Of a DNA stretch of 23,059 nucleotides, positions 5,309 to 22,524 are shown piece by piece. Every line of letters starts with the position of its first letter. Position 1 is the stretch's first letter. Both the position numbers and the translations under genes were made by a program. The stretch is from IMG/VR virus record IMGVR_UViG_3300027728_000098, positions 1-23,059 of that record; one strand, given 5' to 3'. Source of the DNA: a virus. Below the pieces are notes generated by a model. It saw nothing but the letters and a program-made list of their open reading frames with translations, did not search any database and had not been told where the DNA came from.

Positions 5309-6115
5309 TCAGACTCCCGAGATGGTGCCGGTGGCACTGTAGGTGAGCGTGGACAAGGCACGCTCCAGCGAGATCCGCAGTTCGCGTTGCAGGATCGCAG
5401 CCACTTGCCCTTGCGTCTGGGCAAATGCCGTGCGGATTGGCGGCTGGCCCGCTACGCCACCTTCCGGTGTGGGCGGGATCACAATCGGGTTGCCCGACTT
5501 TTTGAAATATGCTCCCGGCGTTGGCGGGTCAGTCTGCACTCGGCTGCGGTTGCCCGGCTGGCGAATCATGCCGAACGGGCCGAGCGACTTGTAGCTGGAC
5601 GCGATGTAGGCGTTCTGCCCGCTTACGGTGTGAACGAGTCCCTTGCCGCGAACCACCTCCTGCCGTCCCATTCGCGTCCGCACGAACGGCACCGACGGGC
5701 TTCGGCGCTGATAAGGGGTGTTGGAAAACTTGCTGACGACGCGGGCTCGCGTGCCGTACTCGATCAACCACTGGTGATACGCCCGGTCGCCTGCCTTGCC
5801 TGACGAGACACGCACCTTGCCACCGGCTGCACTCTCCGAGCCACGGTTGCCGGTGCGTCGATAGCCAATCAACCCGACCGCATTGCCGTTCTTTGTGTAC
5901 GCCTTCGCCAGACTCATCACAGCAGCCCGTAGGTTGCCCGTAGGGCCGACAGGCGTCAGTTCACGTAGCCGTGATTCGGCGGGCACGATCGCCTTCTGGA
6001 GGGCATCCTTGAGGGCCGCAGCGGTGAACCGCTTATCCCCAAGGTTACGAATCGCATCGCCGACTGCTTTCAACTCGGGGAAGTCCGCCGTGATGACAAT
6101 GCCCGCCGTAGCCAT
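5309..6115 (-). CDS. HK97 gp10-like tail completion / neck protein
   Basis: The 268-residue protein starts at the ATG at 6115, which shares its first base with the upstream stop (TGATG); a longer open frame upstream lies inside the head-closure gene and is not used. Features of the HK97 gp10-like family: an N-terminal amphipathic helix, VPAESRLRELTPVGPTGNLRAA with the typical PVxTGxLR turn, and the YHQWLIEYGTRARV segment. It is longer than usual family members (about 120-190 residues); the extra residues (about 140-220) lie before the C-terminal helix, and include Arg/Pro-rich loops. It likely acts at the head-tail joint. Confidence 0.78.
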   Translation of the reverse strand: MATAGIVITADFPELKAVGDAIRNLGDKRFTAAALKDALQKAIVPAESRLRELTPVGPTGNLRAAVMSLAKAYTKNGNAVGLIGYRRTGNRGSESAAGGKVRVSSGKAGDRAYHQWLIEYGTRARVVSKFSNTPYQRRSPSVPFVRTRMGRQEVVRGKGLVHTVSGQNAYIASSYKSLGPFGMIRQPGNRSRVQTDPPTPGAYFKKSGNPIVIPPTPEGGVAGQPPIRTAFAQTQGQVAAILQRELRISLERALSTLTYSATGTISGV

Positions 6116-6432
6116 CAGACGTTCTCCTGGCAGATGACCTCGTGGACGCTGCGATTGTGATGCTCCAAAAGACTGACGATTTCGAGCGTGCGGGATCGCC
6201 ACGTCAGCCGATGCGACTGCGTGAGCCCCGGCAGATACCGCATCTGCACGCGGTGACTGATCGCCACTTGGCTCTGCCCCGAGAGCAGCTGCTCGCGGGC
6301 CGAGACGCCTTCGACGCTCGCCCACACGGCAGACGAGTCAGCCCACGTCATGACCAGTTCGCCAACGGAGTTGGTGACGCCGCTGGCGACTTGCACCGTT
6401 ACCCGCTCGCGGAGTTTTCCGGGGTCGATCAT
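6115..6432 (-). CDS. Phage head closure protein (head-tail adaptor)
   Basis: This 105-residue protein begins MIDPGKLRERVTVQ, the standard opening of the SPP1 gp16 / head-tail adaptor family (short start, LRxRVTxQ strand), followed by TWADSSAVWASVEGVSAREQL and HRVQMRYLPGLTQSHRLTW, both typical. The family closes the portal channel after packaging and offers a platform for the tail. It overlaps the upstream connector gene by ATGA and the downstream gp10-like gene by TGATG. Confidence 0.88.
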   Translation of the reverse strand: MIDPGKLRERVTVQVASGVTNSVGELVMTWADSSAVWASVEGVSAREQLLSGQSQVAISHRVQMRYLPGLTQSHRLTWRSRTLEIVSLLEHHNRSVHEVICQENV

Positions 6433-7064
6433 CGGTACGATCCCCAGCGGTGTGCATCGAGCAACGCCTTGACGCCGTAAGGGATGTCGTTCGCCGCGCC
6501 ACTATCGGCGGCGAGCCGCCGCTCAAACCAGTGCCCGACCAGCATCAGGATCGCGTTGCGAACGCCCTGTGGCACGCTTGCACCAGACTCGCCACGCCCC
6601 GCCCACCATGTCACGGTGACAGAGTTGTAGTCGGTCAGGTGCCCCGGCCACGCCCCGCCGTAGGTGTTGCGGATCACGCCGGGCTTCGTGTCGCGGTCAA
6701 CGCGATAGGTGGACGACGACAACGCAGCGGTAGCACCCGATGCGTCGGAGGTAAACGTCACGCTGACAGCCGTCGCCGTGCCAGCCGTTGCCATTGGAGG
6801 CCGTGGCAGTTCAATCTCTGCTGGGAACCCGTCGAGCCGCATCACAAGCTGCTGATGGATGAGAGCCTCGTCCATGTACGCTTCGACCCACTCGCGAGCC
6901 GCCGTGATGAGAGACGTGAGATAGAAGTCGTCCGAGTCGGAGTCGATGCGGCAATGCACCTTCGCCTCGGCGAGAGATACGGGCTCGACCACGGGCTGCG
7001 TCTGCGTTCGCAGACTGCGATACCGCATCGGCCTGCCGTCATACACCGGCCTTGGGTAGTCCAT
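6429..7064 (-). CDS. gp6-like head-tail connector protein
   Basis: The 211-residue protein contains VSLAEAKVHCRIDSDSDDFYLTSLITAAREWVEAY, the classic start of the HK97 gp6 / YqbG-like connector family (a helix pair that rings the portal), and later VPQGVRNAILMLVGHWFERR, also typical. A beta-rich insert lies between (about residues 75-150). It sits just before the head closure protein and shares its first base with the stop of the upstream gene. Confidence 0.9.
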   Translation of the reverse strand: MDYPRPVYDGRPMRYRSLRTQTQPVVEPVSLAEAKVHCRIDSDSDDFYLTSLITAAREWVEAYMDEALIHQQLVMRLDGFPAEIELPRPPMATAGTATAVSVTFTSDASGATAALSSSTYRVDRDTKPGVIRNTYGGAWPGHLTDYNSVTVTWWAGRGESGASVPQGVRNAILMLVGHWFERRLAADSGAANDIPYGVKALLDAHRWGSYR

Positions 7065-7261
7065 CAGTTCCCTTTCCGGCGGCGCGGCGTGAGGTCAGCA
7101 GACTCGCCGCCTGGCTCAACGCTTGCCGTCTCGATCAGGTCGATCTGTTTCTCTGGGATCGCACGCCCCTCGGCAATCAGCCGCTGGGCCACATCGAGGT
7201 CACATTCAGTGACGTCACCGGGGCGGTACGTCGAGTAGTTGGCGGTGAACTTGATTTTCAT
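7064..7261 (-). CDS. Small head-region protein of unknown role
   Basis: This 65-residue protein starts at the ATG at 7261 (ATGA overlap with the glycosyltransferase stop). It reads MKIKFTANYSTYRPGDV, then LDVAQRLIAEGRA, and ends in a basic tail (TPRRRKGN). Short proteins with a strand, a YxPGDV turn and an ALIAxGxA helix are common between capsid and connector genes in HK97-like phages; their role is not settled. No catalytic motif is seen. Confidence 0.72.
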   Translation of the reverse strand: MKIKFTANYSTYRPGDVTECDLDVAQRLIAEGRAIPEKQIDLIETASVEPGGESADLTPRRRKGN

Positions 7262-7995
7262 GTCTGGGGCACACTCCATGCAGTGTCGGGGCGGGCGAGC
7301 TTGGTGGTGAAGTCAGTAGTCCACTGGAATACGGGCGCTTGCAGATTCTTTCCCGGCCATGCGACGACGTACTCGCCGTGGCCGAGGACGACACGCGGCG
7401 AGATAAAGACGCGGTTCCCGCTCTCTCGCCACCCTCTCCAAAAGAATATGTCATCATCAATTCTGCCGTCATTCCACGAATTGTCTGGGCCGGGCGTTGA
7501 CCAGAACCACGGCTTCTTGCATCGCTTCAGTGCTGCCGTGGAGATGACCGTCAGCCCGAAATGGGCCGAGTCGACTTCCTGCACGGGCTCGGCAAACCAA
7601 TCCGCTGGCACCGTTGAACTGCCGCTGGCCGGCGGGTCGTCGAGCGTGCCCTTGAGCGTCAGCATCGGGCGACCGTCTTCGCGTTTTGTTTGCAGCCCCG
7701 TGATCGCATCGCACTGGAACGTCAGAGCCATCGCGAATAGATGCTCGACGTCGGCCTTGGTGAAGAACGTGTCGTAGTCAATCGTCAGCAGATACTCGCA
7801 CTTGTCGATGAACTGCTCAAAGATTCGCGTGTTGACCTGTGACCAGAACGCACCCGTCCCCATTGTGGGCCGGATGCCCAGCGGCATCAGAGCCTGAGCC
7901 CACGCGAAATGGTTACTCGTGAACGACAGACGCGGCATCGAAAGCACGGCCTCGACGCGGATGTCCACTTCCGTACCGCCGACTTTGACAATCAA
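7258..7995 (-). CDS. GT-A-like glycosyltransferase embedded among head genes
   Basis: This protein of about 245 residues looks like a GT-A nucleotide-sugar transferase. Seen: an N-terminal strand and helix, YLLTIDYDTFF with a DxD-type motif (D73, D75), ITGLQTKREDG, then VDSAHFGLTVISTAALK (acceptor region), and later DGRIDDDIFFWRGW and VVLGHGEY, matching the usual DD-helix-H end of such domains. The start is taken as the TTG at 7995, eight bases after GGAG; a GTG at 8004 is in frame but overlaps the GGAG. It interrupts the normal order decoration, connector, and is preceded by a terminator-like hairpin. Likely targets are virion proteins, host surface sugars or DNA; the sequence does not say which. 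Confidence 0.8.
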   Translation of the reverse strand: MIVKVGGTEVDIRVEAVLSMPRLSFTSNHFAWAQALMPLGIRPTMGTGAFWSQVNTRIFEQFIDKCEYLLTIDYDTFFTKADVEHLFAMALTFQCDAITGLQTKREDGRPMLTLKGTLDDPPASGSSTVPADWFAEPVQEVDSAHFGLTVISTAALKRCKKPWFWSTPGPDNSWNDGRIDDDIFFWRGWRESGNRVFISPRVVLGHGEYVVAWPGKNLQAPVFQWTTDFTTKLARPDTAWSVPQT

Positions 7996-8005
7996 GGTAT
8001 GCACT

Positions 8006-8047
8006 CCAAAAGGAAACGGCTGGCGGGGATCGCTCCTCGCCAGCCGT
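8006..8047 (-). terminator. Strong hairpin with T-rich tail (intrinsic terminator or attenuator)
   Basis: On the minus strand a 32-base hairpin (8016-8047) has arms ACGGCTGGCG and CGCCAGCCGT pairing perfectly over 10 bp, then a G-T wobble and three more pairs closing a four-base loop. It is followed by TTTCCTTTTGG. This resembles a Rho-independent terminator downstream of the capsid and decoration genes. The T-tract runs directly into the GGAG ribosome binding site of the glycosyltransferase gene, so downstream genes must be reached by read-through or by another promoter. Confidence 0.82.
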
Positions 8048-8550: not shown

Positions 8551-9900
8551 TCAGCCGAACTTGAGGGCGACAATCGGGCCAGCCTTGGCAGCGTTGCCGA
8601 GGTCGTGAGCAACCATCGCGACGCGAGCCGTTGCAAAAGTGAGGGTCTGGTCGTACTCGATAAACCGGCTGGCGTCGGTCTTGATCGTCACGCCACGCCG
8701 CTCGCCGAACGTCGCTGCCTGGCTCATGTCGCCGAACAGGCAGGCCACCGTGCCGGTCGTGCCACTTAAGGCAGACTGGAGCGGATGGCACAGCACCACG
8801 GGGAAGCCGAGGAACTGGAGGTTCGCACCACCAGCGATGTCCGCAGCATTGTTGCCCGCGTTGGCGACCATCAGCCGCAGCATCGAGGAACCGTAGCCAG
8901 CGGGCGAGATGAAAAACTTCGCGTTCCGGCGGGCGAACAGCGGAGCCTTCGCGACGAGGCTGGTGAAGTCAGTCAGGGTCAGAGCATCGAACGTCGTCCG
9001 GCTGGTGGCAGTTGCCACGCTGGCCGAGTGCGTACCGTCGTTGATGGCGGAAGCCACACCTACCGTACCGTGGTAAGTGCTGCCGCCGTCACCGATGAGA
9101 CCGGCGTTGTCGTACGCTTCGGCGAACGACTGAGCCACCTCGACCGCCATTGCGTCGGCCAGGTCGATGACCGAGTCTTCCAGCAGGCTGTTGGGCACGC
9201 GGTTGTCGATGCCCCAAAGCTTCGCGATCAGGTTGACGTTGTCGAAGGTCACTTCGCTCGTAGAGGGAGCAGCGTTCTCGCCGATAGGCCGGGCCGACAG
9301 GCCGCTTGTCCTGCGAGCAACGAGCATCGAGTCGGTGTTCATCGAAACCCGGCGAAACTCGCTGGGCACAACGCCGAACTCTTCGACGAGCCGAATGATC
9401 TCAGACGACAGCTCGTCGCTGACGAGAACGCCACCGAGCGAGTTGATCGAGCCAGCCTGGGCACGGCTTTCGACGCCGTGATCGACGCACCACCGACGAG
9501 CCTCCGCATCACCGAGCGTGTAGCCCTTCAGGTGCATTCCGGCACGGTATGCCCGCTCTTCGGCGTTGGCACCCTTGAAAGCCTTGAGTCGGCCAGTGGC
9601 ACGGGGGATGGCGTAGTTGCGAGTTTCCACTTTGGTCTCCTTGACCTCGGGGGCATCAACGGCCTTGGCGGGCGCGGCCCGCTCAATCACGGCACGCAGT
9701 TCAATCTGTTTGGCTTCGATTCGCTGGAGCAGTTCGACCTGCTCACGCAGCTTGGCGGCGCGAGTCTCAAGCGACCGCAGGGAGGCCTCTTGCTCCTCGC
9801 TCATCGCGGGAGCATCACCTTCAGAGGGCGTCTCGCTGGTGGCCTCCATTTCGGCGACCACGGCGGCCAGTTCGTCGAGCAGCTGCTTCAGCTTGTCCAT
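8551..9900 (-). CDS. HK97-fold major capsid protein with N-terminal delta domain
   Basis: The 449-residue protein starts at the ATG at 9900 with AGGAG six bases upstream. Residues 1 to about 85 are a charged coiled coil (MDKLKQLLDELAAVVAEM onward), the delta scaffold normally removed by the prohead protease. The rest has HK97-family wording: GSINSLGGVLVSDELSSEIIRL, FRRVSMNTDSMLV, KLWGIDNRVPNSLLEDSVIDL (E-loop/spine helix area), KFFISPAGYGSSMLRL and FGFPVV-like NLQFLGFPVVLCHPL, and the C-terminal FGDMSQAATFGERRGVTIKTDAS. It is the shell subunit of the head. Whether cross-linking occurs cannot be judged. Confidence 0.95.
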   Translation of the reverse strand: MDKLKQLLDELAAVVAEMEATSETPSEGDAPAMSEEQEASLRSLETRAAKLREQVELLQRIEAKQIELRAVIERAAPAKAVDAPEVKETKVETRNYAIPRATGRLKAFKGANAEERAYRAGMHLKGYTLGDAEARRWCVDHGVESRAQAGSINSLGGVLVSDELSSEIIRLVEEFGVVPSEFRRVSMNTDSMLVARRTSGLSARPIGENAAPSTSEVTFDNVNLIAKLWGIDNRVPNSLLEDSVIDLADAMAVEVAQSFAEAYDNAGLIGDGGSTYHGTVGVASAINDGTHSASVATATSRTTFDALTLTDFTSLVAKAPLFARRNAKFFISPAGYGSSMLRLMVANAGNNAADIAGGANLQFLGFPVVLCHPLQSALSGTTGTVACLFGDMSQAATFGERRGVTIKTDASRFIEYDQTLTFATARVAMVAHDLGNAAKAGPIVALKFG

Positions 9901-9996
9901 GTTGGACTCCTGTGTGCGGGATGCGGGCGGCCAACGCTGCCCACACACTGAAGCTATGGCTGCAAGCCCCCACCCATCCAGAACACAGTAAAACAC
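9901..9996 (-). promoter_or_regulatory. Untranslated leader before the capsid gene
   Basis: About 96 bases separate the zinc-ribbon stop from the capsid ATG, the largest gap in the otherwise overlapping structural operon. It holds the capsid ribosome binding site and a GC-rich stretch that can form a small hairpin (GGGC...GCCC). An internal promoter to boost capsid expression would be reasonable here, but no clear -35/-10 pair is visible. Confidence 0.35.
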
Positions 9997-10170
9997 TCAG
10001 CCGACTCGCAGCCGCCGCACTTCGAACGCTTGCAGCACATGCTTGCCAGTGCAGCCGCACGCATCGCAGCGTAAGTACCGAATCTGGTACTCGCCCTGCC
10101 GCTGGCTGCTGGCGATTTGCAGCCGCCCGCCACGGCACCGCGAACACGAATCGCCTGTCTTAGCGGCCAT
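9997..10170 (-). CDS. Small zinc-ribbon protein
   Basis: This 57-residue protein has two CxxC knuckles, CSRC (residues 8-11) and CDAC (about 36-39), spaced as in a zinc ribbon, with the intervening strands LQIASSQR and YQIRYLRC. The ATG at 10170 overlaps the prohead protease stop by 11 bases. Zinc ribbons of this size bind nucleic acid or protein; Mu Com-like regulators have a similar layout, but there is no modification gene next door to support that role. It lies between protease and capsid genes, where scaffold or regulatory functions are possible. Confidence 0.75.
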   Translation of the reverse strand: MAAKTGDSCSRCRGGRLQIASSQRQGEYQIRYLRCDACGCTGKHVLQAFEVRRLRVG

Positions 10171-10813
10171 GCTTGCTGAGGTACTCGCGGAGGGCTGTGG
10201 TTTTCTGTGCCATCTCAATCCACGCTGCCGTCGCCACCGCTGTGTGCTTGCGGTACAAATCGAACGAACGCTGTGCCACGCTTACGTCAGCATCAGGGTA
10301 GGCAGGGAACGTCACTGGCCCCACGTCGATCAGGCTGTCGATCTTCGTGACGGTGCGGATGCTGCGGCCATCCTCCACGCTCCACGCCTCGCCGCCGGGG
10401 GCGATCTGGAAGCTGAACGAACTGCCACGCACGATGCCAGCGTCAATGTTGCTGGCGAGGTCGCGGCCATAGGTCGTGTCGGGCACCTTGAACTCATACC
10501 GCAGCCCGATCTCGTCCACGTTCATCCGCAGCGTGCCGGGATAGCGAGCCAGCGGGTAGTTCGCGTCGTGGTTGAAAAGTGCCCGCGTCTCTAGCGGACG
10601 CTTGCGGCCACGCCGCTCGGCGACGATGCCAAATGCTTCGGGGGCAATCCGCTCGGTGAACTCACCTAGGACGAGCGAGTTGACGCCGAACTTGGCGGCG
10701 TAGCCGACGATGTATCGGCTTTCGCCCGCATCGCCTTCTTCGCTGCGAGACTCCACGCGGAGCAGCGGCAGGGCGTCGGAGTCATCTTCGTACAGGCTGC
10801 GTCGCTCAATCAT
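10160..10813 (-). CDS. HK97-family prohead maturation protease
   Basis: The 217-residue protein matches the U35/HK97 gp4-type serine protease that cleaves the capsid delta domain. Seen: RYIVGYAAKFG strand, FTERIAPEAF (typical ERIxPGAF variant), FNHD with the likely catalytic His82, GLRYEFKVPDT, and IVRGSSFSFQI with the likely nucleophile Ser132. The start overlaps the portal stop by ATGA. The order portal, protease, capsid is standard. Confidence 0.94.
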   Translation of the reverse strand: MIERRSLYEDDSDALPLLRVESRSEEGDAGESRYIVGYAAKFGVNSLVLGEFTERIAPEAFGIVAERRGRKRPLETRALFNHDANYPLARYPGTLRMNVDEIGLRYEFKVPDTTYGRDLASNIDAGIVRGSSFSFQIAPGGEAWSVEDGRSIRTVTKIDSLIDVGPVTFPAYPDADVSVAQRSFDLYRKHTAVATAAWIEMAQKTTALREYLSKHGR

Positions 10814-12306
10814 TTTTGCTTGCTCCTCTTGCGTGTTGCCAGAACTGGCTCCGCTGCTGGAGCCGACTCACTCACTCCTGCGAGAATCGACGCAACCTGT
10901 GCGGCGGTGATGCTCGGGAACGACGCAGCGATCAGTGCCGCTGCCCCTTCCTTCGTGATGAGCCCCGCTGGCACTTGCTGCAAGATTGCAATCAGCCCCG
11001 TGATCTGTGCCTCGTTGAGCGACACGTCGGCGACCTGCGGAGCCACCGGCTCGGCTGGCTCGCCTTGCTCTGCCGCTGCCACGCCGCCTTCGACTGCCTG
11101 GCCGTCGATGCCGCTGCCCGGCCGCTGCTGGGCAAGCACGTCGTCCACTGACGGCATCGCACCGAGCGTGCCCATGTTGAGCGGGCGGTATCGCTCGTCG
11201 CCGCCGTCAACCGGGTCGAGGTTCTCACTGGCTCTGATGTCGTTCGTCGACACGACGCCAATGTCCCACATGGCACGGTAGTACGCCGACCGGCTCGCGG
11301 CATCGCCACGCAAGAGGCCACGCACGTCAAACTCGGCAAGGTACTTCTCGTCGTCAACGATCAAGTCTCGCACGAACGCAGACTCGAAACGTCGCAGCCA
11401 CGGCATGATCGTGTGCGTCACGAACTGAATCTCGCTCTGCGGCGAACCCGGCTCCAGGCCGAGCAGGTAACCGGGGACGCGGAACAGCCTCGCGATCTCG
11501 CGTAACTGATGCTCTCGCAGTTCCAGATACTGGGAATCGCTGTTCGACGCATACGGCACTTCGTAGGGCTTGAGCCCGCCGGTCAGTACCGCTGTTTCGT
11601 GGGCGTTGTGCGGGCCGCGATGCTTGCGGTTCCAATTCTCTGACAGTTCGCGGCGAGCCTCGGCGTTGAGTTGGTTCTCTGTGCTGAGGATGAAGCCCGG
11701 CCGGGCACCGGCACCGAAGAACCTCGCCCCGTGCACCTCGCACGCCCGAGCCAACGCGATCGCCTCGCGGCACTCCTCGACAATCGAGATGCCGTGAACG
11801 CCGTCGTCACTCGGCCCACGCAGGTGCAGAATCTGCTCGTCGGAGTAGACCGTCTGGCGACCCTGAGCCTCGCGATACGAATACCGCAGCCTGCCGTTCT
11901 CCAACGTCTCGACCTTCATCCGGCTCGGATGCAACGGCACGATCTGGTCAATCGCACCGGCCGCCCCCGGCACTAGCTCAGAGAACGCATCGCCCCACAA
12001 GGCGACGTGCATCACTGCCTGCTCACGCCACTCGAAACTCGTCTGCCAGTTATTCGGCTGGCTGTGCAGCCTGCGATAGAGCGGCAGTTCGCGGGCCAGC
12101 CGCTTGCCGCCGGTTTCAGTCCGCTCAAGCAAGTGCAGCGGCAGACCGGCCACCGTCTCGGCAAGGATCCGCAGGCACGAAAACACCGCAGCCACGGACG
12201 TCGCATTCTCAGGCGTAATCCTCACGCCAGCAGGCGACCGCCCGCCGTCGTCGTCCCATGAACGCTCTTCACCGGGGAGCCAGAGGATGCGGTTTTCGGC
12301 AATCAT
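10810..12306 (-). CDS. HK97-family portal protein
   Basis: The 498-residue protein starts at the ATG at 12306, overlapping the large terminase stop (ATGA); a longer open frame upstream lies within the terminase and is discarded. Family wording: ATSVAAVFSCLRILAETVAGLPLHLL at the N-terminus, QAVMHVALWGDAFSEL, HPSRMKV, YSDEQILHLRG, and LREHQLREIARLFRVPGYLLGLEPGSPQSEIQ, typical of portals. It forms the dodecameric channel at one vertex. A C-terminal extension (about 415-498) with Ala/Glu-rich segments and LITKEGAAALIAASFP resembles the helical tails seen on some portals. Confidence 0.95.
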   Translation of the reverse strand: MIAENRILWLPGEERSWDDDGGRSPAGVRITPENATSVAAVFSCLRILAETVAGLPLHLLERTETGGKRLARELPLYRRLHSQPNNWQTSFEWREQAVMHVALWGDAFSELVPGAAGAIDQIVPLHPSRMKVETLENGRLRYSYREAQGRQTVYSDEQILHLRGPSDDGVHGISIVEECREAIALARACEVHGARFFGAGARPGFILSTENQLNAEARRELSENWNRKHRGPHNAHETAVLTGGLKPYEVPYASNSDSQYLELREHQLREIARLFRVPGYLLGLEPGSPQSEIQFVTHTIMPWLRRFESAFVRDLIVDDEKYLAEFDVRGLLRGDAASRSAYYRAMWDIGVVSTNDIRASENLDPVDGGDERYRPLNMGTLGAMPSVDDVLAQQRPGSGIDGQAVEGGVAAAEQGEPAEPVAPQVADVSLNEAQITGLIAILQQVPAGLITKEGAAALIAASFPSITAAQVASILAGVSESAPAAEPVLATRKRSKQK

Positions 12307-13916
12307 ATGAAAAAGATTTCGGGGGTTGAGGCGGGCGATTGTTCGTTTCGCATCCAGAGACCGATGCCTTGGCAGAGTGCCACGATGCCGTCGATTCGCT
12401 CGGTGCTCTGGGCCTTGCTCGGGAAAATATTGCCGTGGCGATCCTCGTGTATGGCTGCGTTGCCGGCGTTCCAACTCAGGACGGGATGCCCAGCGTGCCG
12501 CATCCGACCGTTCAGCATCAGGTTCTCTAGTGTCTTCGCCGGTGCCGACATGCCGGGACCGCCTTGCGACCATCCTGCCACGGTCAACCCATCCCCTTGC
12601 AGCATGTTAGCGAGCATCTGGGCGTTAAACTTCATATCCACCGCCAGCCCCCGGACGCTGTATTCCTGGCAGATCTGCGTTATGTCGCGGTGCAAGGTGG
12701 TGTAGTCAGTCACGTTTCCATCGGTGACGCGGATATGCCCGTCACGAATCCAGCCGAGGTAGTCAACCTTGTCCCGCTGTGCTCGCTCAACGGCGTTCGC
12801 CTCGGGAATCCAGAAGAAGGGCAGCACGTCGATCGAGTTGTCGGACGGGTCGGGGCACACCAGCACCAGGGCGCTGAGGTCATATGTGCTGGCGAGGTCG
12901 AGCCCCGCGTAAACCGGGCGATCCCCGAACGGCCGCAGCGGAGTGGCACACGCACCCCACGCAGCTGGCGAGATCCAACGAGTATCCTGCGTCGTCCAGA
13001 CGTTGAGCCGGTAGCGGAGGAATGCGTTCAGCTTCGTCGGCGATTGCTCTGCCTCGCGGGCGTCTGCCCTGAACGAGTCCAGAGTGATCGTCTCGCCGAG
13101 ACTCGGGTTTGCCGCCTTCCAGGTCTCTTCGGTCTTCCACGTGCCATCGACGCCACAGTCCTGCGGAGCCGCATAGATGCACCCAAAGAATGCCGGATCG
13201 AACTTCGGATCGGCCATGCACTTTTCCGCGTACTGGTGCTGCTCCCAGCAGATCGAGCGGCGGTCGTATCCCGCCGTCGTGATCGACAGGATCAGCGGCT
13301 GTCGCCTGGCGGCACCGCCGTAGCGTAGTGCGTCCCAGAGCCGCCGGTCGCGTTGGGCGTGCAGTTCGTCGAATAGCAGGGCGTGGATGTTCAGACCCTC
13401 GGCTCGGAAAGCGTCAGCCGACAGCACGCGATAGAACGAGTTGCTCGCCTTGTGAATGATCGTCTTTCGCGAGTCGATCACCTCGAGATGCTTCGACAAC
13501 GCCGGCGAGGCTCTGACCATCGCTGCCGCTTCACGGTAGATGATTCCGGCCTGCTCACGGTCGCACGCCGCACCATACACCTCGGCACCGGGCTCCGAGT
13601 CGAACATCGTCATGTACAGGGCGATGCCCGCGAGGGTGGTCGACTTGCCTTGCTTCTTTGGGAGCTCGATGTACCCGAGGCGGTGTTTGCGAGTCTCGTC
13701 GGCGTTGAGCTCGCCGAACAGCCCACGCAGGACACGTTTCTGCCACGGCAGCAGCAGGAAGTTCTTGCCAGCCGCCTGGCCTTTCGAGTGACGCAGGATC
13801 TTCTCGAAGAACTGGCAGACGCGAACGTATTTCGCCTGGCCGGCTGGCGTGAGCTCAGGCTCCGTGGACTTTGAAGAAGTCGGAGACTTCGTCTGTTGGC
13901 TTTTCTTGTGAGCCAC
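12303..13916 (-). CDS. Terminase large subunit
   Basis: About 537 residues, HK97/YmfN-type (Terminase_1). Seen: Walker A PKKQGKST, Walker B HALLFDE, coupling motif SITTAG, and the nuclease acidic residues in YAGLDLAST, GLAVDMKF and ERIDGIVAL. The protein pumps DNA through the portal and cuts it. The start is uncertain: GTG at 13916 or TTG at 13919, with a weak AAGG-type ribosome binding site; both overlap the small terminase end by about 60 bases. The C-terminus ends with ATGA coupling to the portal. Confidence 0.96.
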   Translation of the reverse strand: MAHKKSQQTKSPTSSKSTEPELTPAGQAKYVRVCQFFEKILRHSKGQAAGKNFLLLPWQKRVLRGLFGELNADETRKHRLGYIELPKKQGKSTTLAGIALYMTMFDSEPGAEVYGAACDREQAGIIYREAAAMVRASPALSKHLEVIDSRKTIIHKASNSFYRVLSADAFRAEGLNIHALLFDELHAQRDRRLWDALRYGGAARRQPLILSITTAGYDRRSICWEQHQYAEKCMADPKFDPAFFGCIYAAPQDCGVDGTWKTEETWKAANPSLGETITLDSFRADAREAEQSPTKLNAFLRYRLNVWTTQDTRWISPAAWGACATPLRPFGDRPVYAGLDLASTYDLSALVLVCPDPSDNSIDVLPFFWIPEANAVERAQRDKVDYLGWIRDGHIRVTDGNVTDYTTLHRDITQICQEYSVRGLAVDMKFNAQMLANMLQGDGLTVAGWSQGGPGMSAPAKTLENLMLNGRMRHAGHPVLSWNAGNAAIHEDRHGNIFPSKAQSTERIDGIVALCQGIGLWMRNEQSPASTPEIFFI

Positions 13917-14328
13917 CAAGTCGTGCCCTTGAGGATGGAGTCAGACCGAACTCTGCCATGATCTGAACTTGCAGCGCGACCAAGCTGCGATACAGCGACC
14001 CAGCCGGGTTGGGCTTCACGCCCCCGAGGTCTGTGTGCATCACGACGCCCGAAGCTCGCAGTGCCAACAGACACGACTGAGCCGCAGCATACACCTCGCA
14101 CAAAACGGCCAGAGCCTCGCCGTCTGCCAGGGTGATGGTGCCGAGTTGCTGGAGCAGCGGAATCATCTCGTGCCACTTTTCGACGGCCGCCGGCTCGACC
14201 ATCAGACGGGCCGGCATCGCGGGAACGCCTGCCGGCGATTCCAAATCGGGCCGAATCTTGCGTTTGCCGGGATTGCCCATCAAACGCTCGACGGAGGCGG
14301 GTCTTTGCTTTGGGCCGGTTTTTGCCAT
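13855..14328 (-). CDS. Terminase small subunit, P27 family
   Basis: The 157-residue protein opens MAKTGPKQRP...LMGNPGKRK, the hallmark of P27-type small terminases, followed by a Pro-rich linker and helices (AAVEKWHEMIPLLQQLGTITLADGEAL) typical of the family. It recognises phage DNA for packaging. The C-terminal part (GLTPSSRARLGG) is also standard. The ribosome binding site before the ATG is poor. It lies directly upstream of, and overlaps, the large subunit, after an HNH endonuclease gene, as in many HK97-like phages. Confidence 0.95.
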   Translation of the reverse strand: MAKTGPKQRPASVERLMGNPGKRKIRPDLESPAGVPAMPARLMVEPAAVEKWHEMIPLLQQLGTITLADGEALAVLCEVYAAAQSCLLALRASGVVMHTDLGGVKPNPAGSLYRSLVALQVQIMAEFGLTPSSRARLGGSQEKPTDEVSDFFKVHGA

Positions 14329-16758: not shown

Positions 16759-17898
16759 CTAGAGACCGAGGTTGTAGACGTCAGCGATGAGTCGTGCAGT
16801 GTGTGGCGTGGCGGCTTGCTTCTCGGACGGTGCAGGTTGCAGCCATCCGCCGTGGTCGAGGTTGCGATACCGGAAGTTCACGCCCGAGATGCTGAACGAA
16901 TCCTGCCCGGCAAGCATGGCGTCGACAGTCTCACGCGAGACCCAGAACGAGCCGTCAGGCTGGTCGGCGGGCCACTTTCCACCGGCATTGAAGACGCCCC
17001 AGCTATTCATACATAGCAGGCCGTCACGCTTGCCTTCGTTCGCGGCATAGCGCACAGAAATAAAGCACATGCAATGAGCCCAACTCCCAGACCTTACTGC
17101 GAATCCATCAGCGTCACGCTGCGACGAGAATCCGACACCGCTGCATACCGGCACCGGGTAGCCCGACTCGATGCTGGCCGCAGCCTCATCAAAGTTCCGC
17201 ACTAACGCGACGTTCTTCGCCGTGTTCTTGTTGCTGAGCTTCGCCAAGGCGATGCCATTGGCACCACCACCGCACAGCATATTCCCCCACTCTTTGGCGC
17301 GGCTCGGGTTGTACGTCGTGAGATCCGCGCCCGGATACGCTTGGCGAAACAGGATGCCGCCGACTGTCTTGTCTGTGCATTTACCTGCCACCCAGCGTGC
17401 AGCTGCTCCACCGTAAGAGCCGTCGGAGTAGCCCGCCTGCGTCACCGGCGGGAGTCGACCGGCTGTCCTCGATCCTGAATACAGCGGCTCAGTCGCCACC
17501 AGCTTCGGCGGCTCTGGCAGTTCGCCTTCAGCAAAATCGACCGCTTGGCCCACATACGAACCCATGGCCCAGCCAAAGCTGACACAATCACCGATCCCCT
17601 GCCGCCACGGGCCGAACGGCTTGCCGTAGACCAGGCGGTGAGCCCTATCGGCGTGCCTGTAGAGAAAAGTGTCCTTCTGCTGCGCCTTGGCGATGACGTC
17701 TTTGCCAGCGTCCGAGAAAAGCGGCTGGTCGAGCGTTGCCAGAAACTGCCGCGTACCCTCGGGATCAGGCACATACCCGAACTGCCCGTCGACTCTCGCC
17801 ACGACCTTGCTCGTGGCTTGCGTGACCAGTGCCGACAGCACAGCCATCACGACCACGAACGCCACGGCAGACAGAGACCATTGATTACTTCGTGACAT
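16759..17898 (-). CDS. Membrane-anchored papain-like cysteine peptidase
   Basis: The 379-residue protein has an N-terminal membrane anchor (about 9-28) and a C1-like peptidase domain. Seen: WRQGIGDCVSFGWA with Gln100 and likely nucleophile Cys105, the middle insert with GGAAARWVAGKC, GSWAHCMCFISVRY with likely His275, and GLLCMNSWG with Asn298; together these give the Q-C-H-N order of papain-type enzymes. The Q-to-C spacing (five) is one short of papain. Topology places the domain outside the cytoplasm. It lies among membrane proteins, so a lysis, cell-wall or injection-related task is a guess. It overlaps the upstream gene by 14 bases. Confidence 0.85.
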   Translation of the reverse strand: MSRSNQWSLSAVAFVVVMAVLSALVTQATSKVVARVDGQFGYVPDPEGTRQFLATLDQPLFSDAGKDVIAKAQQKDTFLYRHADRAHRLVYGKPFGPWRQGIGDCVSFGWAMGSYVGQAVDFAEGELPEPPKLVATEPLYSGSRTAGRLPPVTQAGYSDGSYGGAAARWVAGKCTDKTVGGILFRQAYPGADLTTYNPSRAKEWGNMLCGGGANGIALAKLSNKNTAKNVALVRNFDEAAASIESGYPVPVCSGVGFSSQRDADGFAVRSGSWAHCMCFISVRYAANEGKRDGLLCMNSWGVFNAGGKWPADQPDGSFWVSRETVDAMLAGQDSFSISGVNFRYRNLDHGGWLQPAPSEKQAATPHTARLIADVYNLGL

Positions 17899-19431: not shown

Positions 19432-20304
19432 TCACTCCAGCCAATACATCACAGACCGCATCGCCGGATCGAGGTACAACCGATGCCCTGTCCTCTCGGC
19501 AATCGTCGCATGAAATGGCACATGCTCGCAGTCCGTCCCGTCATACGTTCCAGCGAGGTACGCCTGCGTCTCGTAGATCGCCAGCCCGCCGAACGCAGAG
19601 CAGACCGGGATCGGCGGTGAGCCGACTGCCGGTAACCAGCGATGCTTCCAGCCCCCGAGGCCAGCGGTGTAGTCATCCCACGACGAATTGAGCCTCAGTG
19701 CCCACGCGTCATAGTGCAGCCACGACTTGGTCGGCCCATGTTCCATGATCGACACGCTCGCCATCCCATAGGCGTCGGTCATCGTCGCAAGCGATCCCAT
19801 ACCGTGCATCACGCCCGCGTGGCTCCAGCCGCCCCACGCATCCCAGTCGATGACCAGCGTGTAGGTCGAGTCGGCACAATGCCGCCGCACCCACTCCTGG
19901 CACGCCGTGCGGTACTCAGCCAGGGCGACCGTTCGCGGCCCGGCAAACTCTGCCGAGAACTGCTGCCGGTTGAGCGTCTGCGAGTGGAACGACGCCTGCG
20001 GATAGGCTCCGCAGAAGTTTGCCAGCACCGTTTCCGTATCGTCGGTGTTGTCGTTGGTGGCAATGTGGAGCCGCCACGACCGGCAGTCAGCGACAAGCTG
20101 CAAGAGCCTAGCCAGATTCGCGTTGAGCCACGGGGCACAGTTGCGAGCCAGCCCGACGATAGCCACGTCGGACTCAGCCCACGCATCGACGCCCGTGTGA
20201 TACATGCGGGCGAAGTCACCCGCGAACGCATCGAGCGGATAGATCAGGTGTTCAGGCACCAGTTGCGATTTTGGCAAGTTTTTCAATGAGGCTGAGTCGG
20301 TCAT
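19432..20304 (-). CDS. Putative glycosyltransferase (CAP59/GT69-like pattern)
   Basis: The 290-residue protein has the GT-A build: VAIVGLARNCAPWL at the start of the fold, LHIATNDNTDDTETVL, VIDWDAWGG with a DxD-like D153-W-D155, and CSAFGGLAIYETQAYLAGTY then DGTDCEHVPFH near the end. This second part resembles fungal-type mannosyltransferase relatives (CAP59) found also in bacteria and phages; that link is from memory. The ATG at 20304 lies 53 bases inside the upstream glycosyltransferase gene and has no strong ribosome binding site, so a later start (for example GTG near 20259) is possible. Confidence 0.7.
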   Translation of the reverse strand: MTDSASLKNLPKSQLVPEHLIYPLDAFAGDFARMYHTGVDAWAESDVAIVGLARNCAPWLNANLARLLQLVADCRSWRLHIATNDNTDDTETVLANFCGAYPQASFHSQTLNRQQFSAEFAGPRTVALAEYRTACQEWVRRHCADSTYTLVIDWDAWGGWSHAGVMHGMGSLATMTDAYGMASVSIMEHGPTKSWLHYDAWALRLNSSWDDYTAGLGGWKHRWLPAVGSPPIPVCSAFGGLAIYETQAYLAGTYDGTDCEHVPFHATIAERTGHRLYLDPAMRSVMYWLE

Positions 20305-20890
20305 CGTATTGCGTCACATGCACGAGGTGCGGCTTGTCGGGCTTGTTCATATCGCCGGGGTGGTGGTTCCACTCTGGACCCAGGAACGTCGTCTCGTCGT
20401 AGAGTCTGGTGGGGCTGTCAAGTTTTCCGTGCGGGCCGGGCTCGACGACGTAGCCCATCAGCCGCATGATCGCCGCCTGCTCCCACCACGGGTGCTGCAC
20501 GCAGTCTGTGCCCTCCATCCACGCACGCTCTAGCGTCGGAATCATGTCCTGCGTCACGACCCACACGCCGCAGTTCGGGACGCGACCGCACTCGGTCAGA
20601 TGCTCGACCACCGCTTGGCATGTGCCCGGCTGCAACTCAGCGATGATGTCAGCACCGGGCCATGCGATCACGACATCCACGTCGAGCCAGCAGACAACGT
20701 CATACGTGCCGAGGGCCGCGTGCAGGGCGGGCAACTTATTCCACGACGGCGGGCGGTCGCCACCCTCCAGCAGCAGCGTGCGGATGTCGTGGCCGTGCCG
20801 CTTGGCATACGCTGCCATCAGCGGCACAGTGTGCCGGGACATCGCGGTGTGCAGGTCGCCGGTCCAGCCGGTGAGAATCAGAGACCGCAT
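20252..20890 (-). CDS. Putative GT-A glycosyltransferase
   Basis: The 212-residue protein begins MRSLILTGWTGDLHTAMSRH, then PSWNKLPALHAAL, and VVCWLDVDVVI with a DxD motif (D70, D72), followed by PNCGVWVVTQ (acceptor side), HPWWEQAAIM, FLGPEWNHHPGD and HVTQYDDR. This order (WxK helix, DxD, NxGxW, WWEQ, WNxH, H.TQ) resembles the GT34/galactosyl-transferase type of GT-A enzymes. It lies between a GNAT-like gene and another glycosyltransferase, forming a small sugar-modification cluster. Donor and acceptor are unknown. Confidence 0.8.
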   Translation of the reverse strand: MRSLILTGWTGDLHTAMSRHTVPLMAAYAKRHGHDIRTLLLEGGDRPPSWNKLPALHAALGTYDVVCWLDVDVVIAWPGADIIAELQPGTCQAVVEHLTECGRVPNCGVWVVTQDMIPTLERAWMEGTDCVQHPWWEQAAIMRLMGYVVEPGPHGKLDSPTRLYDETTFLGPEWNHHPGDMNKPDKPHLVHVTQYDDRLSLIEKLAKIATGA

Positions 20891-22402: not shown

Positions 22403-22474
22403 GCCTGCGTAGCTCAATGGCAGAGCAGCGGTTTTGTGAACCGCCGGTTGCTGGTTCAAGTCCAGCCGTAGGCT
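22403..22474 (+). tRNA. tRNA-Thr (anticodon UGU)
   Basis: The 72-base sequence folds as a cloverleaf: acceptor GCCTGCG with CGTAGGC (one G-T), U8-A9, D arm GCTC/GAGC with AATGGCA loop, anticodon stem GCGGT/ACCGC with loop TTTGTGA (anticodon TGT), five-base variable loop, T arm GCTGG/CCAGC with TTCAAGT. Position 73 is T and no CCA is encoded. G1-C72 and C2-G71 fit Thr. Position 37 is G, while U36-ending anticodons normally carry a modifiable A37. The GTG that overlaps the anticodon suggested tRNA-His, but the stem does not allow it. Confidence 0.88.
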
Positions 22475-22524
22475 CTTTGACCGACGAGGAGCGGGAGCGG
22501 CACCATATTCCCGACGCCGGGAAA

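Follow-up and report, generated by a model that had tools for sequence, protein, structure and literature searches.

A predicted GT-A-type glycosyltransferase gene fixed in the head module of a clade of uncultured freshwater phages

Hundreds of related freshwater viruses carry, as a fixed member of their head gene block, a gene for a predicted GT-A-type glycosyltransferase (GT), and the virus studied here probably uses the product of this gene to sugar-coat one of its own particle proteins. The material was the 23,059-base IMG/VR virus record IMGVR_UViG_3300027728_000098, which is called the window below; this bacterial virus is represented by environmental DNA only. Computational analysis revealed the fold of the encoded protein, a set of invariant active-site residues, a strict linkage of the gene to the head module, strong purifying selection, and a conserved terminator-like hairpin that precedes the gene.

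A fixed slot between the capsid and connector genes

The GT gene encodes 245 residues and is located on the minus strand, between a putative decoration gene and a connector gene (Table 1). Read along this strand, the head module has the order HNH endonuclease, TerS, TerL, portal, prohead protease, major capsid protein (MCP), putative decoration protein and GT, and it continues 3′ of the GT with a 65-residue protein, a gp6-like connector, a head completion protein and the tail genes. The coordinates originally assigned to the gene, and its placement between capsid and connector genes, are borne out by the open reading frame and by the Pfam and PHROG matches of its neighbours. The adjacent gene that had been called a decoration gene fits this description in position and size, but the sole match of its product is a PHROG whose function is unknown, and the label therefore denotes position and size only. 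The open reading frame of the GT extends from 7258 to 8004 with a GTG start. Because the proteins of relatives begin with MIVKV or MLVKV, which corresponds to the TTG at 7995, we took this TTG as the start codon.

Table 1. Positions of the GT gene and associated features. Positions are those of the window unless a contig is named.
Feature	Position	Strand	Basis or remark
Predicted GT-A glycosyltransferase, 245 aa, TTG start, head-module core gene	7258..7995	(-)	AlphaFold2 model, PDB matches, invariant residues
Shine-Dalgarno-like GGAG, 8 nt upstream of the GT TTG	8004..8007	(-)	sequence
Intrinsic-terminator-like hairpin (8016-8047) and T-rich tail (8008-8016), spacer between decoration gene and GT	8008..8047	(-)	sequence
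Small conserved protein, 65 aa, ATG overlapping the GT stop (ATGA)	7064..7261	(-)	sequence; downstream of GT in most relatives
gp6-like head-tail connector	6429..7064	(-)	PF05135 E 1e-13; phrog_442
Head completion protein	6115..6432	(-)	PF05521 E 7e-19
Putative decoration/head protein, 149 aa	8074..8523	(-)	phrog_5707, function unknown; missing in distant-MCP lineage
Major capsid protein (MCP), HK97 type	8551..9996	(-)	PF05065 E 3e-28; phrog_10
Prohead serine protease	10160..10813	(-)	PF04586 E 5e-39
Portal protein	10810..12573	(-)	PF04860 E 1e-88
Terminase large subunit (TerL)	12303..13919	(-)	PF20441, PF03354
Second GT-A-like glycosyltransferase, possible partner	19432..20304	(-)	AlphaFold2 pLDDT 84, pTM 0.86; Foldseek COLGALT1/GalNAc-T-like
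50-nt perfect-hairpin insertion in the GT gene of relatives	L103:5180-5229; matching site in L157-L171 (15 contigs)		sequence

Two other features of the window lie outside this module. A tRNA-Thr (TGT) is encoded at 22403-22475 on the plus strand, opposite to the phage genes and close to the end of the record. The minus-strand gene at 16759-17898 encodes a 379-residue protein that carries a hydrophobic N-terminal segment and Cys/His/Asn stretches of papain-like appearance. This product had no Pfam match and may act as a peptidase in lysis or processing.

Relatives were collected in scans seeded with the GT (390 relatives), with a distant GT (164) and with one yet more distant (36). At all 240 flanked loci, some of which are overlapping pieces of one contig, the order is MCP, an optional decoration gene, GT, an optional small gene, and connector. 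The slot is identical, with zero exceptions, at 36 further distant GT loci, down to approximately 30% identity. As a safeguard against the bias of GT seeding, loci were also retrieved with the connector as the seed. Here the GT is present wherever the site is reached, the remaining loci being cut by the contig end; not one contig that has the connector and extends across the site was without it. Long contigs picked via the second GT either carry the head-module GT or, in eight cases, have neither this GT nor the connector. This places the GT among the core genes of the head module; it is not an insertion. The earlier description of a gene inserted into, and interrupting, the order of the virion genes consequently fails, as the slot is fixed in all relatives found.

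The original prediction had also placed a terminator-like hairpin ahead of the GT gene, and this element is present in the window. The stem is followed by the tail TTTCCTTTT, directly before the GT gene. A T-rich tail preceded by a stem of at least nine pairs was found in 95% of the 114 distinct spacers compared and in 4% of dinucleotide shuffles, and the hairpin is kept as a structure across the clade with stem sequences that are unrelated. Judged from these sequences, the hairpin is a putative intrinsic terminator that would allow an excess of capsid-gene product, with the GT, connector and tail genes located beyond it.

Fold, active site and comparison with known systems

AlphaFold2, supplied with an alignment of 23 relatives, produced a model of the GT with a mean pLDDT of 88 and a pTM of 0.88. 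Foldseek ranked STIV A197 first among structural matches (E 1e-7), followed by COLGALT1, LH3, mimivirus R699, TarP and the polypeptide GalNAc transferases. With VIA-align, A197 was again the best PDB match (Z 17.3 over 176 residues, 2.9 Å), after which came the protein glycosyltransferases LH3 (Z about 16), COLGALT1 and GalNAc-T2 together with TarP. A Z of at least 8 was reached by 680 of 998 PDB chains, and nearly all of the matches listed are GT-A enzymes; cellulose synthase and RmlT are also among them. The top matches in BFVD come from uncultured tailed phages, and several of these proteins are annotated as GT-A type; a protein of Mycobacterium phage Ardmore stands at rank 23.

All 153 distinct GT sequences, among them 21 relatives at roughly 30% identity, share the same seven residues: D73 and D75 of the DxD metal motif, H145, D180, D182, H206 and E208. 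By analogy with other GT-A enzymes, D180, D182, H206 and E208 would represent acidic acceptor-side residues and the histidine ligand of the C-terminal half. In view of the model, the PDB matches and the invariance of these residues, a predicted GT-A fold with a conserved active site is well supported, and we infer that the protein catalyses sugar transfer. Structure prediction, and not Pfam, thus upheld the GT-A assignment that had been made earlier from sequence.

Sequence searches with the GT yielded little. It had no Pfam match, phmmer detected no match among all PDB chains at E ≤ 1, and tblastn with three divergent members of the family found none in 50,697 phage records. The only PHROG hit was a weak profile match to phrog_1574, whose function is unknown. 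This profile was considered as a functional clue and set aside, because its matches in Planctomycetota genomes are mostly generic GT-A-like proteins located away from phage head genes.

Both virion glycosylation by phage glycosyltransferases and the presence of such genes in the capsid-to-connector interval are already known. In Cluster J mycobacteriophages, glycosyltransferases lie between the MCP and connector genes (Thibault gp11-gp19, Omega gp16-17; PMC3706429). That interval contains 8-10 variable genes with several glycosyltransferases and a methyltransferase, whereas here a single GT is always present in the same slot. Glycosylation of capsid and tail-tube proteins is attributed to Che8, Corndog and Myrna in citations of Freeman 2023 (as cited in PMC12619734 and PMC12363180), and Corndog carries glycosyltransferases inside its virion operon and has capsid subunits that may be modified (PMC4351075). 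The enzymes of Che8 (gp110), Corndog (gp36-gp38) and Myrna resemble the window GT in being phage-encoded, and those of Corndog also in the location of their genes among virion genes. They differ in that they belong to phages of other hosts, share no detected sequence similarity with it, and have functions shown by mass spectrometry, whereas that of the window GT is predicted. Given the Cluster J genes and these cited reports, modification of virion proteins is less rare than the original prediction had supposed.

The closest structural counterpart comes from STIV, whose MCP is glycosylated and for which A197 is essential (PMC10551542). A197 (PDB 2c0n) is likewise a small single-domain viral GT-A protein, but it has no detectable sequence similarity to the window GT, it belongs to an archaeal, non-tailed virus with an internal membrane, and its target is putative there too. 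The glycosyltransferase domains of COLGALT1 and LH3 (Z 14-16) share the GT-A fold and have a Mn2+/DxD site and protein acceptors, in their case hydroxylysine. However, these are eukaryotic multidomain enzymes with 11-13% identity to the GT, and their acceptor is not transferable from the fold alone. What is new is a sequence family unmatched in the phage records searched, which constitutes a single core gene fixed in a large uncultured clade.

Divergence of the GT and a 50-nt insertion in some relatives

Between the window and distant GT-seeded relatives, the GT has approximately 85% amino-acid identity, and identity at four-fold degenerate sites is approximately 0.45, as in the neighbouring genes. 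Because these sites are as saturated as those of its neighbours, a recent transfer of the GT was rejected. The divergence of the GT is old and has proceeded under strong purifying selection. In the same comparison the GT had seemed far more conserved than every neighbour (85% compared with 34% for the MCP), a contrast that is partly due to selection bias in the GT-seeded set. When loci were collected with the connector as the seed, and likewise across 75 dereplicated loci, the GT evolves at about the pace of the connector; faster-evolving or swapped MCPs are still clear. Among the 75 dereplicated loci, GT identity correlates with that of the connector (Spearman 0.81), the head completion protein (0.80) and the MCP (0.64). 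A GT identity of at least 80% is combined with an MCP identity below 42% in 156 pairs of these loci, and 53 pairs have the reverse combination. GT and MCP types have thus been reassorted among these phages.

Such mosaicism is seen in L026, L030, L059 and others and in L122-L133, as GTs of approximately 85% identity with MCPs of approximately 34% and no decoration gene, and as the reverse. The TerL proteins of L056, L060 and L076 are discordant as well (72%).

The partial discordance between GT and MCP divergence is what might be expected of a cargo gene recently acquired by the head operon, as the original prediction implied. We regard this explanation as barely credible. The synonymous sites are saturated, the slot is constant in every relative down to 30% identity, no relative was found without the GT, and for this clade the fixed synteny contradicts such an origin.

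In 15 relatives, an identical 50-nt insertion follows GT codon W51, and its sole variation is a single T-to-C change, which preserves pairing in the stem. The insertion forms a long perfect hairpin, carries stops in all frames and breaks the reading frame; the window GT is without it. Both halves of the GT gene are intact in all 15 relatives as far as the contigs extend, and the six longest insertion-bearing records contain no second copy. A scan of all of IMG/VR for the hairpin found it at the GT site only. The phages that carry it have MCPs as divergent as 88% and 33-35% identity to that of the window. Genes that have otherwise diverged match exactly over the element and roughly 50-100 nt upstream of it, and identity falls soon after the element, a pattern that would fit spread by gene conversion.

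The translational bypass of T4 gene 60 also involves a 50-nt gap with a hairpin and an adjacent stop (PMC5009743). The insertion resembles it in its length of 50 nt, its perfect stem and a GGT followed by TGA, but the codons at its edges are mismatched (TGG/TGC and GGT/GAC). Because the codons at the two edges differ, ribosomal bypassing is a candidate mechanism only. A search with one HNH family found no homing endonuclease specific to the insertion-bearing relatives. We describe the insertion as a candidate bypass or homing-protected element, or a recent knockout; judged by its sequence, bypass and knockout appear equally possible. A frame-breaking insertion in 15 relatives may mean that the GT gene is sometimes dispensable.

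Probable role and target

The strict linkage of the GT to the head module makes a target in the virion or in virion assembly the best guess. We consider it somewhat better than an even chance that the GT is a soluble, metal-dependent GT-A enzyme that is made late and most likely glycosylates a particle or assembly protein. The enzyme would be produced with the head operon, and the upstream terminator should hold it below the capsid level, in catalytic amounts. In the host cytoplasm, before or during assembly, it would transfer a sugar from a host nucleotide-sugar to the particle or assembly protein. The second GT, whose window copy has no Pfam match, is found in 13 of 14 long relatives; it may act in the same pathway and may extend the same glycan. 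Overlapping it in the window is a third GT-like gene (20252-20890, minus strand), which has a weak GT34/MNN10 match below the cut-off; a search of 15 long relatives found it only in the two nearest. The host that would supply the nucleotide-sugar is likely to be a planctomycete, because the only two matches in genome collections (L155 and L156) are both contigs of Planctomycetota metagenome-assembled genomes, one of them a Pirellula. Neither contig has bacterial flanks, and a binning error is therefore possible.

Location among the head genes does not by itself prove that the substrate is a virion protein, and GT-A folds are associated with no single acceptor class, as the matches to TarP and cellulose synthase illustrate. 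Phage glycosyltransferases that alter serotype are well known, and the cell-wall enzymes TarP and RmlT are among the structural matches, so that the GT could instead alter host surface glycans or a receptor late in infection and limit superinfection or re-adsorption of progeny. We judge this rather unlikely, as conversion genes are usually accessory whereas the GT is fixed inside the head operon of all relatives, its divergence tracks that of the connector and head completion genes, and no flippase or membrane partner was recognised in the neighbourhood. That the protein is a structural or assembly factor derived from a GT-A enzyme, with catalysis absent or incidental, would suit its obligatory place among head genes and its connector-like conservation. 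It is nevertheless improbable, since all expected catalytic and metal-binding residues are invariant at approximately 30% identity, which is not expected of a non-enzyme. Viral glycosyltransferases that add diverse glycans to DNA exist, according to a citation of Pyle 2024 in PMC12619734, but glycosylation of a hypermodified base of the phage DNA is very improbable here. The GT gene lies in the head operon and not in a nucleotide module, and no thymidylate-synthase-type gene (PF00303) was found in 26 long relatives, with controls positive in 9 of 14, although fragments and other routes are possible.

If a virion or assembly protein is indeed the substrate, the candidates can be narrowed. The idea that virion proteins are glycosylated agrees with the co-location of the genes, but the decoration protein, which had been named among the targets, cannot be an obligatory one, because a large MCP lineage without a decoration gene has a GT that is 83-86% identical to that of the window. 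The MCP or a connector or tail component is more likely. The decoupling of GT and MCP types in both directions speaks against an enzyme that recognises features peculiar to the MCP, and it makes a target whose features are confined to one MCP type unlikely.

A fuller version of the preferred reading has an unlikely but appreciable chance of being correct as a whole. In this version, the GT would be a single, dedicated and obligatory virion-protein glycosyltransferase in the core head module of phages, probably of planctomycetes, that form a large uncultured clade. Glycosylation would be built into head morphogenesis, with the participation of the second core GT, instead of serving as an accessory shield; in certain phages of the clade, the gene would have been invaded by a mobile 50-nt hairpin that is either bypassed by the ribosome or switches the enzyme off.

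The GT represents a sequence-distinct family that can be used to annotate hundreds of genes now called hypothetical. Because the gene is so strictly linked to the head module, the question of its target is testable with one expressed enzyme and a few candidate acceptors. Should the target prove to be a virion protein, glycosylation of proteins would be a constant feature of a common group of freshwater tailed phages and not a peculiarity of a few mycobacteriophages.
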